This document shows positions 17,857 to 36,030 of a stretch of DNA of 64,000 nucleotides, piece after piece. The DNA lies in contig SYFY01000156.1 in the NCBI GenBank assembly GCA_005799745.1, forward strand, positions 1-64,000, given 5' to 3'. This stretch comes from Gammaproteobacteria bacterium. GTDB taxonomy: Bacteria; Pseudomonadota; Gammaproteobacteria; Pseudomonadales; Azotimanducaceae. The notes below the pieces were generated by a model. That model saw only the letters and a list, made by a program, of their open reading frames with translations. It was not told the origin of the DNA and ran no database searches. The position numbers were made by a program, and so were the translations under genes. Numbering within the stretch: position 1 is the first letter of the stretch; every line of letters starts with the position of its first letter.

Positions 17857-18957
17857 ATGTTGGCCACGGCTCCGACTGTCTCCAGGAGAGACTTCGAGCA
17901 GGGCACCGGCTGGACGTTTAAACCAGAAGGTGCCTGCAAAGGGGATGTCTGCATCCCGCTAAAAAAACAACCTGGTGAATCCATCGAGCTCTCTGCAATC
18001 GCCGCAGAAATGGGTTTGCCGCTGGTGAGCGAACCCAACCATCAGCTTTGGGCTGTCGGACCCGAGAGCATCGGCTCAAAGGCGCTGGTTTCTGCGGAAG
18101 CGCCGTCGTTGGTACTGCCTGATCTCGATGGCAACCTCTTCGACCTGAAGAAATTGCTCGGGAAAAAAGTGCTCATCTACGCGTGGGCACCGTACTGAGG
18201 CTGCTCCGGTGACCTGCCCGTGTGGCAGGTGCTTCGAGAGGAACTAGCACCGAAAGGTTTTGAGCTTGTTACGGTTGGACTCGATACGCTAGGTGCTGCG
18301 GGTTGCCGCCCCTTTATTGAAGCGGCAGCACCGAAACATCCATCGTTGATTGATTCGACCCATCAACTCGCCAACAAGTTTGGCGTGATCAACATTCCGC
18401 AGGCCGTCTGGATTGATGAAAACGGCTTGATCGTGCGCCCGGCGGAAGTGGCACCGGCGCCACCGCAGCCGAACTCACGGATTCGTTTGCCAGCAGACCC
18501 CGGTCAAATGCCCTCGCGTTTTGTCGAGATGATGGGCGAGGCGGTGAAGATCCGTCAGGAGGGAGAAACCTATCACGTGGCCCTTCGTGATTGGGTCGAG
18601 AAGGGCGCCAAGAGTGTTTATGCCATGACACCTGAACAGGTCATCGCACGCTCGCGTCCCAGGTCTGTGGATGTGGCGCTCGGTCATGCGCACTTTGAAT
18701 TGGCCTCCGTACTTGAGCACAAGGGTGTCCATGATCTCGCGGTCAAACACTTCAAAGAGGCCCATCGATTGGTTCCGGACAGTTGGACCTTTCGCCGTCA
18801 GGCATGGTCGCTGGAAAAGGTGATCGATGGTCCCATGCAACGATTCTGGCAAGGCCCGGATCCGGAGAAACTGGAAGCGTGGCCGTATGCAGGGGACTGG
18901 CTTGCTGATATCCGTAAAGTCGGCGCGGTGAACTACAACGAGCCGTGGCAACCCTGA
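17857..18957 (+). CDS. Selenoprotein: ResA-like redoxin with WAPY-Sec-GC motif
   Basis: One 366-residue protein read through TGA at 18196-18198 as selenocysteine 114. Upstream are an N-terminal segment with a C-x4-C pair (GACKGDVC) and the redoxin beta strand KVLIYAWAPY; the same frame continues GCSGDLPVWQVL with no shift. The motif W-A-P-Y-U-G-C matches the known WAxxUGC selenoprotein family, in which Cys homologues occur. Downstream are the thioredoxin-fold FGVINIPQAVWIDENGLIV and a TPR-like C-terminal tail (about 275-320). A bacterial SECIS candidate follows the TGA. No signal peptide, so it is cytoplasmic. Role: probably a thiol/selenol peroxidase or reductase. Needs selA, selB, selC and selD elsewhere. 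The alternative, a nonsense mutation, is unlikely given motif and hairpin. Confidence 0.9.
18212..18230 (+). promoter_or_regulatory. Candidate bacterial SECIS element of the redoxin selenoprotein
   Basis: Stem ACCTGCC (18212-18218) pairs perfectly with GGCAGGT (18224-18230) around the 5-nt loop CGTGT. The loop begins 21 nt after the last base of the TGA, inside the 16-37 nt range described for bacterial SECIS elements, and has a G within its first two bases. It would bind SelB during decoding of the TGA at 18196-18198. Confidence 0.85.
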
Positions 18958-31236: not shown

Positions 31237-31557
31237 ATGCCTTCTGTGATCTTTGTGCTCTCAAATGGCCAACGCCACCTGGTGAACGAAGCCGTTGGCC
31301 GTACTGTTATGGACGCGGCACTAGATCAAGGCATCCCTGGTATTCGAGCCCAATGTGGGGGCGGTTGTACTTGCTGCACCTGCCATTGTTATGTTGAGGG
31401 AGGTTGGCAAGGACAGTTTCCAACGCCCATCGATGATGAACAGGCACTGCTCGAATACGCGTGGCAACCCCGTGCGGAGAGTCGTCTTGCCTGTCAGCTC
31501 AAGTTGACCGCAGCGCACGAGGGGCTTGTAATCGAAGTCCCTGAAAAACAGGCCTGA
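31237..31557 (+). CDS. 2Fe-2S ferredoxin
   Basis: 106 residues with the adrenodoxin/plant-type cluster binding CGGGCTCCTC followed by HCYV and a distal Cys in SRLACQL. It carries one-electron equivalents to oxygenases or reductases. Note that the cluster loop has extra Cys residues. The start at 31237 gives a compact protein. Only 3 bp separate it from the UGSC selenoprotein, so it is the first gene of that three-gene operon and probably its redox partner (inference). Confidence 0.85.
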   Translation: MPSVIFVLSNGQRHLVNEAVGRTVMDAALDQGIPGIRAQCGGGCTCCTCHCYVEGGWQGQFPTPIDDEQALLEYAWQPRAESRLACQLKLTAAHEGLVIEVPEKQA

Positions 31558-31560
31558 ACC

Positions 31561-32091
31561 ATGATTGAGTTTCATGATCCCCGCGCCCCCACTGAGGTGG
31601 CGGTAACCCCTTATCTCCTTGGTATCGACCTCGAGTCTGGAAAAGACTTCACGGTCGGTTTTCTCGCCAATGGATTCCCCGATTCTGATGTGTTCCTCCA
31701 AGAAGTTGCGACCGCGCTGACCAAGCGCACCGGTGTCAAAGCGAAACACTGGAACAAGGGTAACGCCTCGATTCCAGCGAGCCCGAAGATTCTTGATGAA
31801 ATCAAGGCGAGTTGTCAGGCAGTCATCGCTGCCTACGGTCACTGAGGCTCTTGCACCACCGGCACCGTGCGTGACGGCATTTCGGTTGCGAACCTCGGTA
31901 TTCCAGCAGTGTCGCTGGTGACGGAAAAATTCTGGCCACAAGGCGACTTCGTCGCGAACTCCATTGGCATGCCCGGTTTGCCGCGGGTGCAATTACCGCA
32001 TCCCACGGGTGGGACCGGGCGGGACAACATGCGGCACATCGCAGAACGTGTAGTTCCAGAGATCGTCGCCGCACTCAGGAAGGCTTCATGA
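31561..32091 (+). CDS. UGSC-family selenoprotein
   Basis: 176-residue protein read through TGA 31843-31845 as selenocysteine 95, giving Y-G-H-U-G-S-C, the defining UGSC motif of a known (seleno)protein family in which U may be Cys. The first part has the typical order GFLANGFPDSDVFLQEVATAL, KHWNKGNASIP and EIKASCQAVIAAYG. After the TGA the same frame runs SCTTGTVRDGISVANLG, VTEKFWPQGDF and a C-terminal helix. A SECIS-like stem-loop follows. No signal peptide. Biochemical role unknown; the U-G-S-C site suggests thiol-type redox or lyase chemistry. Downstream gene overlaps by 4 bp (ATGA). Confidence 0.92.
31859..31877 (+). promoter_or_regulatory. Candidate bacterial SECIS element of the UGSC gene
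   Basis: Stem CCGGCAC (31859-31865) pairs with GTGACGG (31871-31877) with one G-A mismatch; the loop is CGTGC (31866-31870). The loop starts 21 nt after the last base of the TGA, exactly as in the redoxin selenoprotein, and has the same CGTG start, a shared signal for SelB. Confidence 0.8.
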
Positions 32092-33170
32092 CGGAGATGT
32101 TGTCCGCGGCGGATGAATCCGCCGGCCTCGAAAAACTGCATGCGATGCGTTGCACCGACGGCCTGCCCGTGGTGATCCCCACCCGTGCGCGCGTGGACCG
32201 ACTTGTTTTGGCGACGGGTCAGGATGCAGACATGGTGCTCGGGACCATGGGTCCAGCTGGCGGTACTGCAACGATTGAAAAGGTTGCAGTAGCGGCGGTG
32301 ATGGCCGGGTGTTTGCCTGACCATATGCCAGTGGTGATCGCTGCTGTGCAAGCCGTGGTTGATCCGGCATTCGATCTCACGGAAATGCAGTCGACGACCC
32401 ATTGCACCGCGCCATTGGTCATCGTGAACGGTCCGGCGCGCGCAGCCTGCGGCGGAATTTCCGGAGGTTTTGGTGCCTTGGGTCCGGGACATCGGGCCAA
32501 CGCGAGCATCGGTCGGGCACTGCGTCTGGCCATGATCAATATTGGTGGCGCGCGACCGGGTGAATCCGATATGGCGTTGCTCGGTCATCCCGGCAAATTC
32601 ACCTACTGTCTTGCAGAAGATGAAGAGAGCAGTCCGTTTGCACCGCTGCACACGTCGCTCGGTTTCACACCGGATGACAGTGCCGTAACTGTGATCGGTG
32701 CGGAAGCACCACATTCAGTGCTGTACAGCCCGACGGGGGATATCGCTGGTGATGCCAAACGCATGACCGAGGTCCTGGCCATTGGACTCGCCAACATGGC
32801 CACCAACAACGCTCAGCTGCGTAATGGTGCGGCAGTGGTCGTCCTCAACCCGGAACATGCCGAGGTCTATCGTAAGGCCAACATGAGCCGCGAAGCGGTC
32901 CAGAAGGCGCTGTATGACCTGTGTTATCAACGACCGGAAGAACTGAAGCGTCTTGCCGGCGGCTTCGCGCCGAAGGGTGAAGACCGTGGGCCGGTGCATT
33001 CGTTCAGGAGTCACGAAGACATTCTGGTGCTCGTCGCCGGTGGCACGGGTCTCTATTCGATGGTGATGCCGACCTGGTGTGCAGGTCCACACGCTAATCG
33101 ATATGTGACGAAAAAGGTAGAGCTCGACGTTTACTGCGAGGTGGTGATCGGCGGGACAGCTACGGCGTGA
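32088..33170 (+). CDS. UGSC-associated conserved protein of unknown function
   Basis: 360 residues with a recurring family pattern: CTDGLPVVIPT, MAGCLPDHMPVVIAAVQAVV, TTHCTAPLVIVNGPARA, LGPGHRANASIGRALRL and ARPGESDMALLGHPGKF. From recollection of database neighbourhoods, this family occurs next to UGSC proteins, so the two likely act together. Conserved Cys (AACGGISGG, TWCAGPH) and His are present but no known catalytic motif is recognised. It is translationally coupled to UGSC by a 4-bp overlap. Its 3' end overlaps the larE 3' end by 11 bp on the opposite strand. Confidence 0.75.
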   Translation: MTEMLSAADESAGLEKLHAMRCTDGLPVVIPTRARVDRLVLATGQDADMVLGTMGPAGGTATIEKVAVAAVMAGCLPDHMPVVIAAVQAVVDPAFDLTEMQSTTHCTAPLVIVNGPARAACGGISGGFGALGPGHRANASIGRALRLAMINIGGARPGESDMALLGHPGKFTYCLAEDEESSPFAPLHTSLGFTPDDSAVTVIGAEAPHSVLYSPTGDIAGDAKRMTEVLAIGLANMATNNAQLRNGAAVVVLNPEHAEVYRKANMSREAVQKALYDLCYQRPEELKRLAGGFAPKGEDRGPVHSFRSHEDILVLVAGGTGLYSMVMPTWCAGPHANRYVTKKVELDVYCEVVIGGTATA

Positions 33171-34032
33171 AAACCTGAACGAGCGGGATATCGCCCCGCA
33201 CTTTGAGCACGTCGTTCAGAGATCCTGATCTGAAGCCACCAAGGTCCAAAGCAACGTAGAGATAGCCGTAAGACTTCAGTGCCTTTTCAACCGACTCCCG
33301 ATGCGTGAGCAGCAGAGCCAGCTCGTCAGGCATGACTTCGAGCCGCGCAATATCGCCGTGGTGGCGAACGCGGTACTGCGTTAAGCCGATGGACGCCAGG
33401 AAGTCCTCTGACTGTTCTACCTGCATGAGCAGCGCTTCGGTGATGGCGGTTCCGTAGGGAAACCGGCTCGAGAGACAAGCAGCCTGGGGTTTCTCTGCGT
33501 TTTCGAGCCCCAGCCAGCGGGCGAGGGCACGTACATCGGTTTTGTGAAATCCAGCTTCAACGAGGGGCGAGCGCACCTCGTGATCTTCAGCTGCAACCAA
33601 ACCCGGGCGGTGGTCACCCAGGTCATCGAGGTTAGTGCCGTTCAAAAGCACCGCATAGCTATCTCGATCGGCAACGCCCTTGAGCAGTGAATAGAGCGAT
33701 GTCTTGCAGTGAAAACACCGATTGACCGGATTGGCGCGGTAGTCCGCCTTGGCGATCTCATCGGTCATCACCACGCGGTGTTCGAGACCCCACGATGCGG
33801 CGAGTTCATGGGCGAGTGCCAGATCCTTGCGTTTTAGACTCAGCGATCCGGATGTGATCGCCAGCGCTTTGCGACCCAGCACCTGGCCTGCGACGAAGGC
33901 GACGAGGGAACTGTCGATGCCGGCGGAAAAGGCGACGATGGCTGATTCATAGCCGGCAATGATCAGCTTCAGGCGATCATATTTTTCCGAGATCGCCGGA
34001 TCGAGTGATGTTTGCGCAGGCAAGTTCGTCAT
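33160..34032 (-). CDS. larE: ATP-dependent sacrificial sulfur transferase LarE
   Basis: 290 residues. It gives sulfur from its own Cys to convert the carboxylates of the nickel-pincer nucleotide precursor to thioacids. The PP-loop is FSAGIDSS (usual form SGGVDS), with VNRCFHCKTSLY and a sulfur-donor Cys in the AACLSSRFPYG segment. The ATG at 34032 (MTNLPAQTS) leaves 7 bp after the larB stop, so larB-larE are co-transcribed. No larC or larA is seen in the window. Confidence 0.9.
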   Translation of the reverse strand: MTNLPAQTSLDPAISEKYDRLKLIIAGYESAIVAFSAGIDSSLVAFVAGQVLGRKALAITSGSLSLKRKDLALAHELAASWGLEHRVVMTDEIAKADYRANPVNRCFHCKTSLYSLLKGVADRDSYAVLLNGTNLDDLGDHRPGLVAAEDHEVRSPLVEAGFHKTDVRALARWLGLENAEKPQAACLSSRFPYGTAITEALLMQVEQSEDFLASIGLTQYRVRHHGDIARLEVMPDELALLLTHRESVEKALKSYGYLYVALDLGGFRSGSLNDVLKVRGDIPLVQVFTP

Positions 34033-34039
34033 GAATCTC

Positions 34040-34780
34040 TCACAGCCGGTTGATTCGATTCGCAAGGTGGGCGGCACCAAAACCGTTGTCGATATTGACC
34101 ACGCCGAGCCCCGAAGCACAGCTGTTCAGCATACCGAGCAGTGCTGAGAGTCCATTGAAAGACGCACCATAACCGACGGAGGTTGGGACGGCGATCACGG
34201 GTTTATCCACCAAACCACCCACCACACTCGGCAAAGCCCCTTCCATGCCGGCGATAACGATCACGACACGCGCCGCCCGGATTTCAGGTAACCGCGCGAG
34301 TAAGCGATGCAGGCCAGCAACACCCACGTCGTAGATGCGGTTGACTGGATTACCAAAAAATTCCAGGGTTCCAGCAGCTTCTTCGCAAACCGCCATGTCC
34401 GATGTGCCGGCACTGACCACGGCAACCGTGTGTGCAGTTTGGAGCACGGGCTGTGTCAGGTGCGTAACAAGCCGCCCCACGGCGTGGTAACTCGCACCCT
34501 TTTTTAGGGCATTGAGCGCAGCGGCTTTTTCCGGATCAACTCTCGTGATGAGAACGTTGGATCCGCGCGCCACCATATGGTCGAAGATCTCATCGATCTG
34601 TGCGGCACTCTTGCCCGAACCGTAGATGACTTCACCCGATCCAGTGCGAGCGGCTCGATCATGATCGAGGGTGGTGTGACCGAGGTCCTCAAAAAAACAT
34701 GCCCGAATTTCTTTTTCGGCGGCATCCGCCGACAGCCGACCCGCTTCCATGTCGGCGAGAATGGACTTCATATCTCGCAT
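34040..34780 (-). CDS. larB: Nickel pincer cofactor biosynthesis protein LarB
   Basis: 246 residues. LarB is an AIR carboxylase-like enzyme that carboxylates nicotinic acid adenine dinucleotide and hydrolyses its phosphoanhydride to start nickel-pincer nucleotide synthesis. Motifs: TRVDPEKAAALNA, VVSAGTSDMAVCEEAA, RVVIVIAGMEGALPSVVGGL and VPTSVGYGASFNGLSALLGM (in part). The ATG at 34780 overlaps the stop of the upstream Fe-S aldo/keto reductase gene by one base (TGATG), so the three genes form an operon. Confidence 0.92.
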   Translation of the reverse strand: MRDMKSILADMEAGRLSADAAEKEIRACFFEDLGHTTLDHDRAARTGSGEVIYGSGKSAAQIDEIFDHMVARGSNVLITRVDPEKAAALNALKKGASYHAVGRLVTHLTQPVLQTAHTVAVVSAGTSDMAVCEEAAGTLEFFGNPVNRIYDVGVAGLHRLLARLPEIRAARVVIVIAGMEGALPSVVGGLVDKPVIAVPTSVGYGASFNGLSALLGMLNSCASGLGVVNIDNGFGAAHLANRINRL

Positions 34781-36030
34781 CAGCTGAGCATCCGATGGGT
34801 GGGTGCGCACAGTTCGTAGATGGCGATCCCGTGCGGGCAGGCGCCTTGGCAGGGCTGCCCGGAACACGACAGGCAAGCTGATGCATCAGTGGCGAGTACA
34901 GCGTATTCACGTCGCGCGAAATCGACGTCACGATAGTCAGTGGCGTACATACGTGTTCGCAAAACATCGGCGATGGGCACACCGTAAGGGCAAGCACCGT
35001 CGCAACGGTCACACGCTTGGCGGCAGTACGTGTGGCCGTTGAGCGCAACGTAGCGTCCGAGCAGGGGCAGGTCTTCCGCGGCGACTTGGGTCGCACCAGA
35101 AGCACCGAGAAATTCGTCAATCTCAATGGTATCGGTCATCGAGATGACGAGAGCGTCCACATCCTTGTTAGAGAGTACCCAGCGGAAGGCGGCTTGCGAA
35201 TACGTTGCACCACCGGATTCAAACGGGCGCATATCGTTGAGCCGCGCGCCCATCAGCGTCTTCATGGCGACAATGCCAACATCTTTGGTTTTCGCCTTGG
35301 CCAGGATGCGCGGCAGTTGGTCCTGTGTGGCGACCATGTCGAAGGAGCGGGTGATGCTCTCGTAGAACTTCGGATCCTGACCGAAGTTGAAGGCGACGAG
35401 CATGGCGTCCACGAGGTCGTGGTCGATCGCATAGTCGAGACACTCTGCAAGGTTTCCGGCGTGACCGGAAACACCGACGAAGCGAATCTTGCCCTGTGCC
35501 TTGGCTTTTTCATTAAACGCATGCCACCCCGGATTTTTCAGGCATTCGATGCTGTTGATGGCGTGCATCATGTAGAGGTCGATGTAGTCCGTCTGCAATC
35601 GCCGTAGCGATTCTTCAAGCGCCTGCATCATGCTGGCCGCACTTTCGGTGCTGCCCGTAACACGTTTGCCGACGAGGTAGTCATCCTTGCGTTTGCCTTT
35701 GAGGGCGTTGCCGATAACGGTTTCGCTGTCACCGTCGGTGTACATCTCGGCGGTGTCGAAGTAGTTGATGCCACGATCAAGGGCGTGGTGTACGAGGTGT
35801 TCTTGACCAAGGCGCAGGCGGCTTGCGCCAAAGCTGATGTCGGAGATTTCCATGTTGGTGCGGCCGAGACGAACGTAGCGTTTGACCTGCGGGGTGCCGG
35901 CGGTGTTGGTTCCCAGCCGCGACTGCGCCTGAATGGTTGAGGGAACTCCTGTCACCGCAGCCAATCCCGGAATTGCGGCGCCTTTAAGCAAGCTACGCCG
36001 CGAACGATCCGTTGCATCAGTGCTGCTCAT
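34780..36030 (-). CDS. Tat-exported aldo/keto reductase with C-terminal 4Fe-4S domain
   Basis: 416 residues. A twin-arginine leader (DRSRRSLLKGAAIPG) precedes an aldo/keto reductase barrel: INYFDTAEMY, LVGKRV, YMMHAI. The C-terminal part has two cysteine clusters of ferredoxin type (CRQACDRCDGACPYG and CLSCSGQPCQGACPHG), predicting two 4Fe-4S centres. The start at 36030 has GGAGG 5 nt before. Likely a periplasmic or membrane-associated reductase with an electron-transfer tail. It is first in an operon with larB and larE, which suggests a link to nickel-pincer chemistry, unproven. Confidence 0.88.
   Translation of the reverse strand: MSSTDATDRSRRSLLKGAAIPGLAAVTGVPSTIQAQSRLGTNTAGTPQVKRYVRLGRTNMEISDISFGASRLRLGQEHLVHHALDRGINYFDTAEMYTDGDSETVIGNALKGKRKDDYLVGKRVTGSTESAASMMQALEESLRRLQTDYIDLYMMHAINSIECLKNPGWHAFNEKAKAQGKIRFVGVSGHAGNLAECLDYAIDHDLVDAMLVAFNFGQDPKFYESITRSFDMVATQDQLPRILAKAKTKDVGIVAMKTLMGARLNDMRPFESGGATYSQAAFRWVLSNKDVDALVISMTDTIEIDEFLGASGATQVAAEDLPLLGRYVALNGHTYCRQACDRCDGACPYGVPIADVLRTRMYATDYRDVDFARREYAVLATDASACLSCSGQPCQGACPHGIAIYELCAPTHRMLS

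Follow-up and report, generated by a model that had tools for sequence, protein, structure and literature searches.

UGSC selenoproteins, named for a motif that opens with selenocysteine (Sec), are already known (PMC2398784, PMC13188914, PMC9312934, PMC5330540, PMC5029168, PMC7539508). In the ocean sampling table of 2008 they form the fifth most numerous selenoprotein family, with 255 sequences; the same paper suggests a thioredoxin-like ('Trx-like') fold for them and notes that UGSC can be fused to another domain, named Unknown_1 (PMC2398784). A 2026 review describes the functions of a selenoprotein group that includes UGSC as largely uncharacterised, and it states that the thioredoxin system supplies glycine reductase (PMC13188914). 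For a GrdB-related two-gene unit of Cloacibacillus, cleavage of the C-F bond in fluoroacetate has been proposed (PMC10838667), so such chemistry may extend beyond amino-acid fermentation. The available portions of PMC2398784, PMC13188914, PMC9312934 and PMC5029168 make no link between UGSC and GrdB. Here we analyze a UGSC gene (31561..32091, + strand) in a 64,000-nucleotide stretch of a gammaproteobacterial genome (contig SYFY01000156.1, assembly GCA_005799745.1), which we call the window. An earlier note on this DNA had proposed a UGSC selenoprotein read across a TGA. The family itself is known; the parts worth following are its partner protein and its likely kinship to reductases, and both go beyond that first reading.

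The UGSC gene starts with the ATG at 31561 and runs to Y-G-H, which is followed by TGA at 31843..31845 (+), the codon of the putative Sec95. The same frame continues with G-S-C, and 81 sense codons separate this TGA from the next one at 32089..32091. The motif TGA-G-S-C spans 31843..31854, with Sec opening U-G-S-C. One read-through gives 176 residues, the terminal stop being counted in the gene coordinates. The partner gene (32088..33170, +, 360 amino acids) starts with the ATG at 32088, and the four bases ATGA are common to the UGSC stop and the partner start. Upstream, a 2Fe-2S ferredoxin gene (Fer2; 31237..31557, +) stops three bases short of the UGSC gene and encodes a possible local electron donor. 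From this spacing, the ferredoxin, UGSC and partner genes look like one operon.

With C put for U, the whole protein matches the UGSC family PF24696 with E=1.5e-43 over profile positions 15-171 of 172, and its score of 149.3 bits exceeds Pfam's gathering cut-off, which is 25. This profile search confirms the family identity that the earlier note had given to the continued frame. The two halves also match separately, with E=1.5e-11 (profile 15-92) for the part before the TGA and E=2.3e-23 (profile 94-171) for the part after it. Since the first match ends at 92 and the second starts at 94, profile position 93 is left for the TGA, and the claimed resumption of the frame with G-S-C after Y-G-H is borne out. 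The cut-off of the NCBIfam equivalog model NF041046 is not reached (107.1 versus 125 bits). The window protein is a member of PF24696, not an NF041046 equivalog, and represents a divergent member of the known UGSC family.

Relatives were collected in two sets. One comprises 16 loci fetched with the UGSC profile, the window itself among them; in the class, this profile matches in 6 of 369 genomes, the window's own counted. The other comprises 80 loci fetched with the downstream partner protein, the top-ranking 80 among 558 relatives. Searching these 96 loci with a UGSC profile made from 10 sequences (nine from the searched loci plus the window) gives 99 stretches, of which one is the window. 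At the site of the window TGA, the other 98 stretches show TGA in 88 cases, Cys in seven and neither in two (L071 and L102:3176), and one stretch (L064:16680) ends before the site. Six Cys forms read C-G-S-C and one (L017) reads C-G-L-C. This is the conservation of TGA or TGC among relatives that the earlier note had predicted. A tree of 95 UGSC proteins requires a minimum of three Sec/Cys changes. At L071:6038-7690, a UGSC-partner fusion has G-E-G-G in place of the motif, with neither Sec nor Cys, and a second partner gene adjoins it.

The window genome, a draft assembly of 218 contigs that is 85.94% complete, encodes Sec machinery. The selA (518.3 bits) and selB (409.3 bits) genes adjoin on contig C185, and both score over their cut-offs, as does selD (261.5 bits). 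A tRNA-Sec with a UCA anticodon scores 70.6 bits. It sits on another contig, and ARAGORN finds no tRNA within the window. A second match over the Rfam cut-off in the tRNA-Sec search scores 49.2 bits (contig C150). The lack of Sec machinery, which the earlier note had named as a reason to abandon its reading, does not apply to this genome. Across the 39 genomes behind 40 of the 80 partner-fetched loci, selB scores over its cut-off in 30 of 33 genomes with the TGA form versus 2 of 6 with the Cys form (Fisher p=0.0055). The two Cys-form genomes with such a selB are mycobacteria (L069, L089).

A candidate for the selenocysteine insertion sequence (SECIS) lies a short way behind the TGA. In the 20 closest TGA genes (Pseudomonadota and Actinomycetota, mostly Acidimicrobiia; window included), codons +6 to +10, 16-30 nucleotides behind the TGA, are identical in 20 of 20 and read GGC ACC GTG CGT GAC. 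In the window this block occupies 31861..31875 (+) and is the presumed SECIS core. Conserved amino acids flanking it use several codons, and Ala at +15 uses all four. Frozen synonymous codons at the right distance fit what a SECIS would require. A possible apical hairpin, CCGU-GCGUG-ACGG (31865..31877, +), overlaps the frozen block; it has four pairs, and five relatives break one of them. Elsewhere in the family the hairpin has more length. At least five Watson-Crick pairs are found at 65 of 88 TGA sites (window counted; one of 89 was too short) versus 256 of 890 control windows from the same genes, and also in 4 of 6 Cys genes. Among TGA genes that have His at +9, all 45 show pairing between the third bases of codons +6 and +8. 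This covariation has a Fisher p of 2.6e-13, a value that overstates it, because the pattern traces to some four switches on the tree, and branches with good support contribute a single independent pair. Overall, these bases pair in 82 of 88 TGA genes and in 4 of 6 Cys genes. Several points weigh against the hairpin: the fold energy of its 60-nucleotide stretch is ordinary (z=-0.73), the stem is short, one pair is broken in the five relatives, and a scan of the window against Rfam at gathering thresholds gives no match. The frozen codons behind the TGA present a clear natural SECIS candidate for mutagenesis.

Because both halves match PF24696, the TGA is conserved, synonymous codons behind it are frozen and Sec machinery is present, the gene very probably reads the TGA at 31843 as Sec and yields a 176-residue UGSC selenoprotein. 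TGA is a stop by default, and in a draft assembly a mutation or an assembly error could have left a broken gene or two genes. With the same TGA in 88 of the 98 other UGSC-like stretches, a conserved part behind it, the frozen codons and the Sec machinery, we regard a real stop as extremely improbable. Conservation of the downstream part, of the TGA and of the codons behind it likewise argues against termination at 31845. The ATGA overlap at 32088 is present as described in the earlier note, where it was taken as expected only if the full length is translated. It favours full-length translation, but by itself it cannot exclude a stop at 31845.

The partner protein matches no Pfam or NCBIfam family. 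The 73 members of its family, window included, give only scattered matches at chance level (best 0.019 in Pfam and 0.016 in NCBIfam). Its linkage to UGSC is close. Outside the window, 104 partner regions were found, and in 93 of them the partner is adjacent or fused to UGSC: 38 follow UGSC, 31 precede it (within 700 bp) and 24 are fused with it in one open frame. The rest comprise five regions at 0.9-1.8 kb from UGSC and six without UGSC on the locus. Loci fetched with the partner alone contain UGSC in 74 of 80 cases, and those fetched with UGSC alone contain the partner in 16 of 16, window included. The linkage is not circular, because each set of loci, fetched with one protein, contains the other. 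The pair occurs in bacteria of many phyla, and the Cys form is found in a haloarchaeon (L053). The Unknown_1 domain of the published fusion is probably the partner domain described here. Four partners examined carry an N-terminal CPTC domain before the partner domain. The profile of this domain matches thioredoxins with E=1e-5, and Pfam gives no match over cut-off for it. One of the four is the partner of the second UGSC protein of the window genome, on contig C209.

Some relatives show unusual arrangements. In genome G332 (loci L015, L020-L027 and L127), all nine UGSC copies are UGSC-partner fusions and all have TGA. One of these fusions sits between selB and selA, with a reductase of the pyridine-nucleotide-disulphide type beyond selB, and several start with an apparent secretion signal, judged by eye. 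Metagenome bins labelled Klebsiella pneumoniae (L045) and Bordetella parapertussis (L063) carry genes of the UGSC/partner type; these labels look doubtful.

Profile comparisons point to selenoprotein B of glycine and D-proline reductases. When 75 UGSC proteins are scanned against NCBIfam at E<=1, 31 match GrdB, 23 GrdF, 15 PrdB, 14 GrdH and 12 the wider selenoprotein B family, and the best match of this type has E=1.1e-5. Ten members were scanned singly; six match, all through the C-terminal part of the Grd/Prd models and far under the cut-offs. In hhalign, the UGSC profile aligns with 11 PrdB/GrdB-like proteins with E=5.2e-5 (67%), Sec falling on Sec, and with E=1.7e-6 (90%) in the reverse direction. 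With the four motif columns masked, E=1.1e-4 is retained. Among 17 control families from the same loci, short-chain dehydrogenase included, the best value is 0.0092, and the partner family gives 0.51. These profiles suggest that UGSC likely shares ancestry with the Sec-bearing C-terminal part of GrdB/PrdB, the window protein itself not being filed as a member.

Several observations weigh against this kinship. The window protein matches no Grd model at E<=1 in the NCBIfam scan and has no PF07355 match at E<=10, and the listing of 25 families matched by the 75 UGSC proteins does not include PF07355. The kinship therefore rests on the family profile and not on the window sequence alone. The hhalign probability is moderate (67-90%). 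Profile scans detect no relation between the partner family and the known subunits of Grd/Prd systems, and evidence for a pyruvoyl partner is therefore lacking. All this would also suit a Rossmann-like selenoenzyme that does not descend from GrdB/PrdB, whose likeness comes from a common fold with UxxC at a helix start and whose chemistry differs; in its favour, UGSC also lacks the N-terminal part of glycine reductase and a known Grd/Prd subunit. We consider this origin unlikely, given that five related models match, all at the same C-terminal stretch, and that the hhalign signal survives motif masking while the 17 control families are far weaker. On other contigs of the window genome, two PF07355-type (PrdB/GrdB-like) genes have an in-frame TGA, L109 (1063-1977, -) with the motif U-P-V-C and L114 (1189-1989, -) with U-P-L-D. 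The window genome thus probably holds true selenoprotein B relatives beside its two UGSC genes.

The AlphaFold2 model of the window UGSC protein, made from 75 sequences, has a predicted local distance difference test score (pLDDT) of 95.8 and a predicted TM-score (pTM) of 0.91. It contains five strand-helix units, and Sec95 lies between strand 87-93 and helix 96-110, that is, after the third strand. The best Foldseek match is a flavodoxin-like domain (E=6.4e-5, TM-score 0.48), and the best VIA-align match is a designed protein (Z 10.8, root-mean-square deviation 3.3 over 130 residues). Each of the two fold searches lists 50 matches: flavodoxins and further Rossmann-like proteins, together with response regulators, GTPases and similar proteins. 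Neither thioredoxins nor Grd/Prd proteins are listed, an absence that excludes neither of the two. The fold is thus predicted to be Rossmann/flavodoxin-like, in disagreement with the 'Trx-like fold' in print.

This prediction bears on the suggestion that UGSC is a thioredoxin-fold thiol oxidoreductase, acting in peroxidase or disulfide exchange chemistry through its UxxC pair. In favour of such an enzyme, 85 of the 88 TGA genes retain the UxxC spacing. In a thioredoxin core, however, the motif follows the first core strand and the core also has a strand hairpin; the confident model instead strings five strand-helix units together and places Sec behind the third of its strands. The second Cys is replaced by Ser in 3 of the 88 TGA genes, and some partners bear a real thioredoxin domain of their own. 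A thioredoxin-type function for UGSC appears unlikely to us on these grounds. A natural UGSC-partner fusion (L064) was modelled with pLDDT 87.6 and pTM 0.89. Foldseek finds nothing for the fusion model at E<=0.001, and VIA-align barely tests the partner half. In the alignment behind it (A3), 34-41 C-terminal residues are misplaced in 17 UGSC-only rows. Searches with UGSC and partner proteins and profiles against the sequences of solved structures give matches only at E>=0.1.

Taken with the profile kinship, the linkage leads us to propose, at roughly even chances, that UGSC and partner form one two-component reductase related to GrdB/PrdB, with Sec as the nucleophile, for the reductive cleavage of a C-N, C-O or C-X bond. 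In such an enzyme, UGSC would supply a Rossmann/flavodoxin-like domain with Sec95 at a helix start. The selenolate of Sec95 would attack a small substrate held against the partner, and the C-N, C-O or C-X bond of this substrate would be cleaved reductively. The oxidised Sec would usually, but not always, be resolved by Cys98. The change of the second Cys to Ser occurs while Sec stays, which fits Sec as the essential nucleophile. Electrons could come from the thioredoxin system or, in the window operon, possibly from the ferredoxin whose gene directly precedes that of UGSC. Two points tell against parts of this scheme. At E<=1e-5, none of the other 95 loci has a ferredoxin next to UGSC, 16 of the 96 loci having only about 1.5 kb of flank; a role of ferredoxin as a general UGSC partner, seen as it is only at the window locus, is not supported. 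The neighbours, catabolic and transport genes in mixture, are also too mixed to name the substrate: 108 same-strand open reading frames within 1.5 kb at 58 loci include eight TctC, four coenzyme A (CoA)-transferase III, four MaoC and four SBP_bac_5. Sec could instead serve as a ligand for a metal or another soft ion, with UGSC and partner binding or detoxifying rather than catalysing; roles of this kind have been suggested for other selenoprotein families (PMC13188914). With one Sec only and usually one Cys, kinship to reductases, and thioredoxin domains on some partners, we judge ion binding to be very unlikely and retain the two-component reductase as our preferred reading.

Two other features of the window concern this locus or its selenoproteins. 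Convergent to the partner gene lie genes (33160-34876, -) for LarE and LarB, which serve the nickel-pincer cofactor. Among the other loci, only L040 has relatives of the two, at some 5 kb from its UGSC, and LarB/LarE were rejected as UGSC partners. The frame at 17950-18957 (+) contains an in-frame TGA at 18196 that gives Y-U-G-C, and this stretch matches Redoxin (E=1.6e-11) and AhpC/TSA (E=5.3e-11). The description of UGSC as the second selenoprotein of the stretch, as the earlier note had put it, agrees with this.

With the linkage to a partner, a predicted fold unlike the published guess and the likely connection to glycine and D-proline reductases, what was an orphan family can now be tested as a two-component enzyme. 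More tentatively, and with less confidence than in the two-component reductase as such, we suggest that UGSC and partner may be an unrecognised, slimmed branch of these reductases. Such a branch, fed by thioredoxin or ferredoxin, would use Sec as its nucleophile to break C-N, C-O or C-halogen bonds in small acids, in a context other than amino-acid fermentation. Compared with the UGSC family as described (PF24696; NF041046; PMC2398784), the window protein shares the whole-length match, U-G-S-C with Sec, and Cys forms in relatives. It differs from the family of PMC2398784 in its score under the NF041046 cut-off, in a partner encoded by a separate overlapping gene and in the ferredoxin gene upstream. 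With GrdB, GrdF, GrdH and PrdB (PF07355), the C-terminal stretch aligns, Sec on Sec, in the profile comparison, but only this C-terminal part corresponds; the N-terminal part of glycine reductase is lacking, and the UGSC partner is not detectably a Grd/Prd subunit. Glycine reductase is thioredoxin-fed (PMC13188914), and some UGSC partners carry a thioredoxin domain. The Cloacibacillus fluoroacetate unit (PMC10838667) is likened to UGSC by description only; it is reported from a rumen bacterium, in the company of an antiporter and a radical S-adenosylmethionine protein. The two would share a make-up of two genes, kinship to GrdB and a proposed role in breaking a carbon-heteroatom bond in a small acid, in a setting other than the fermentation of amino acids.
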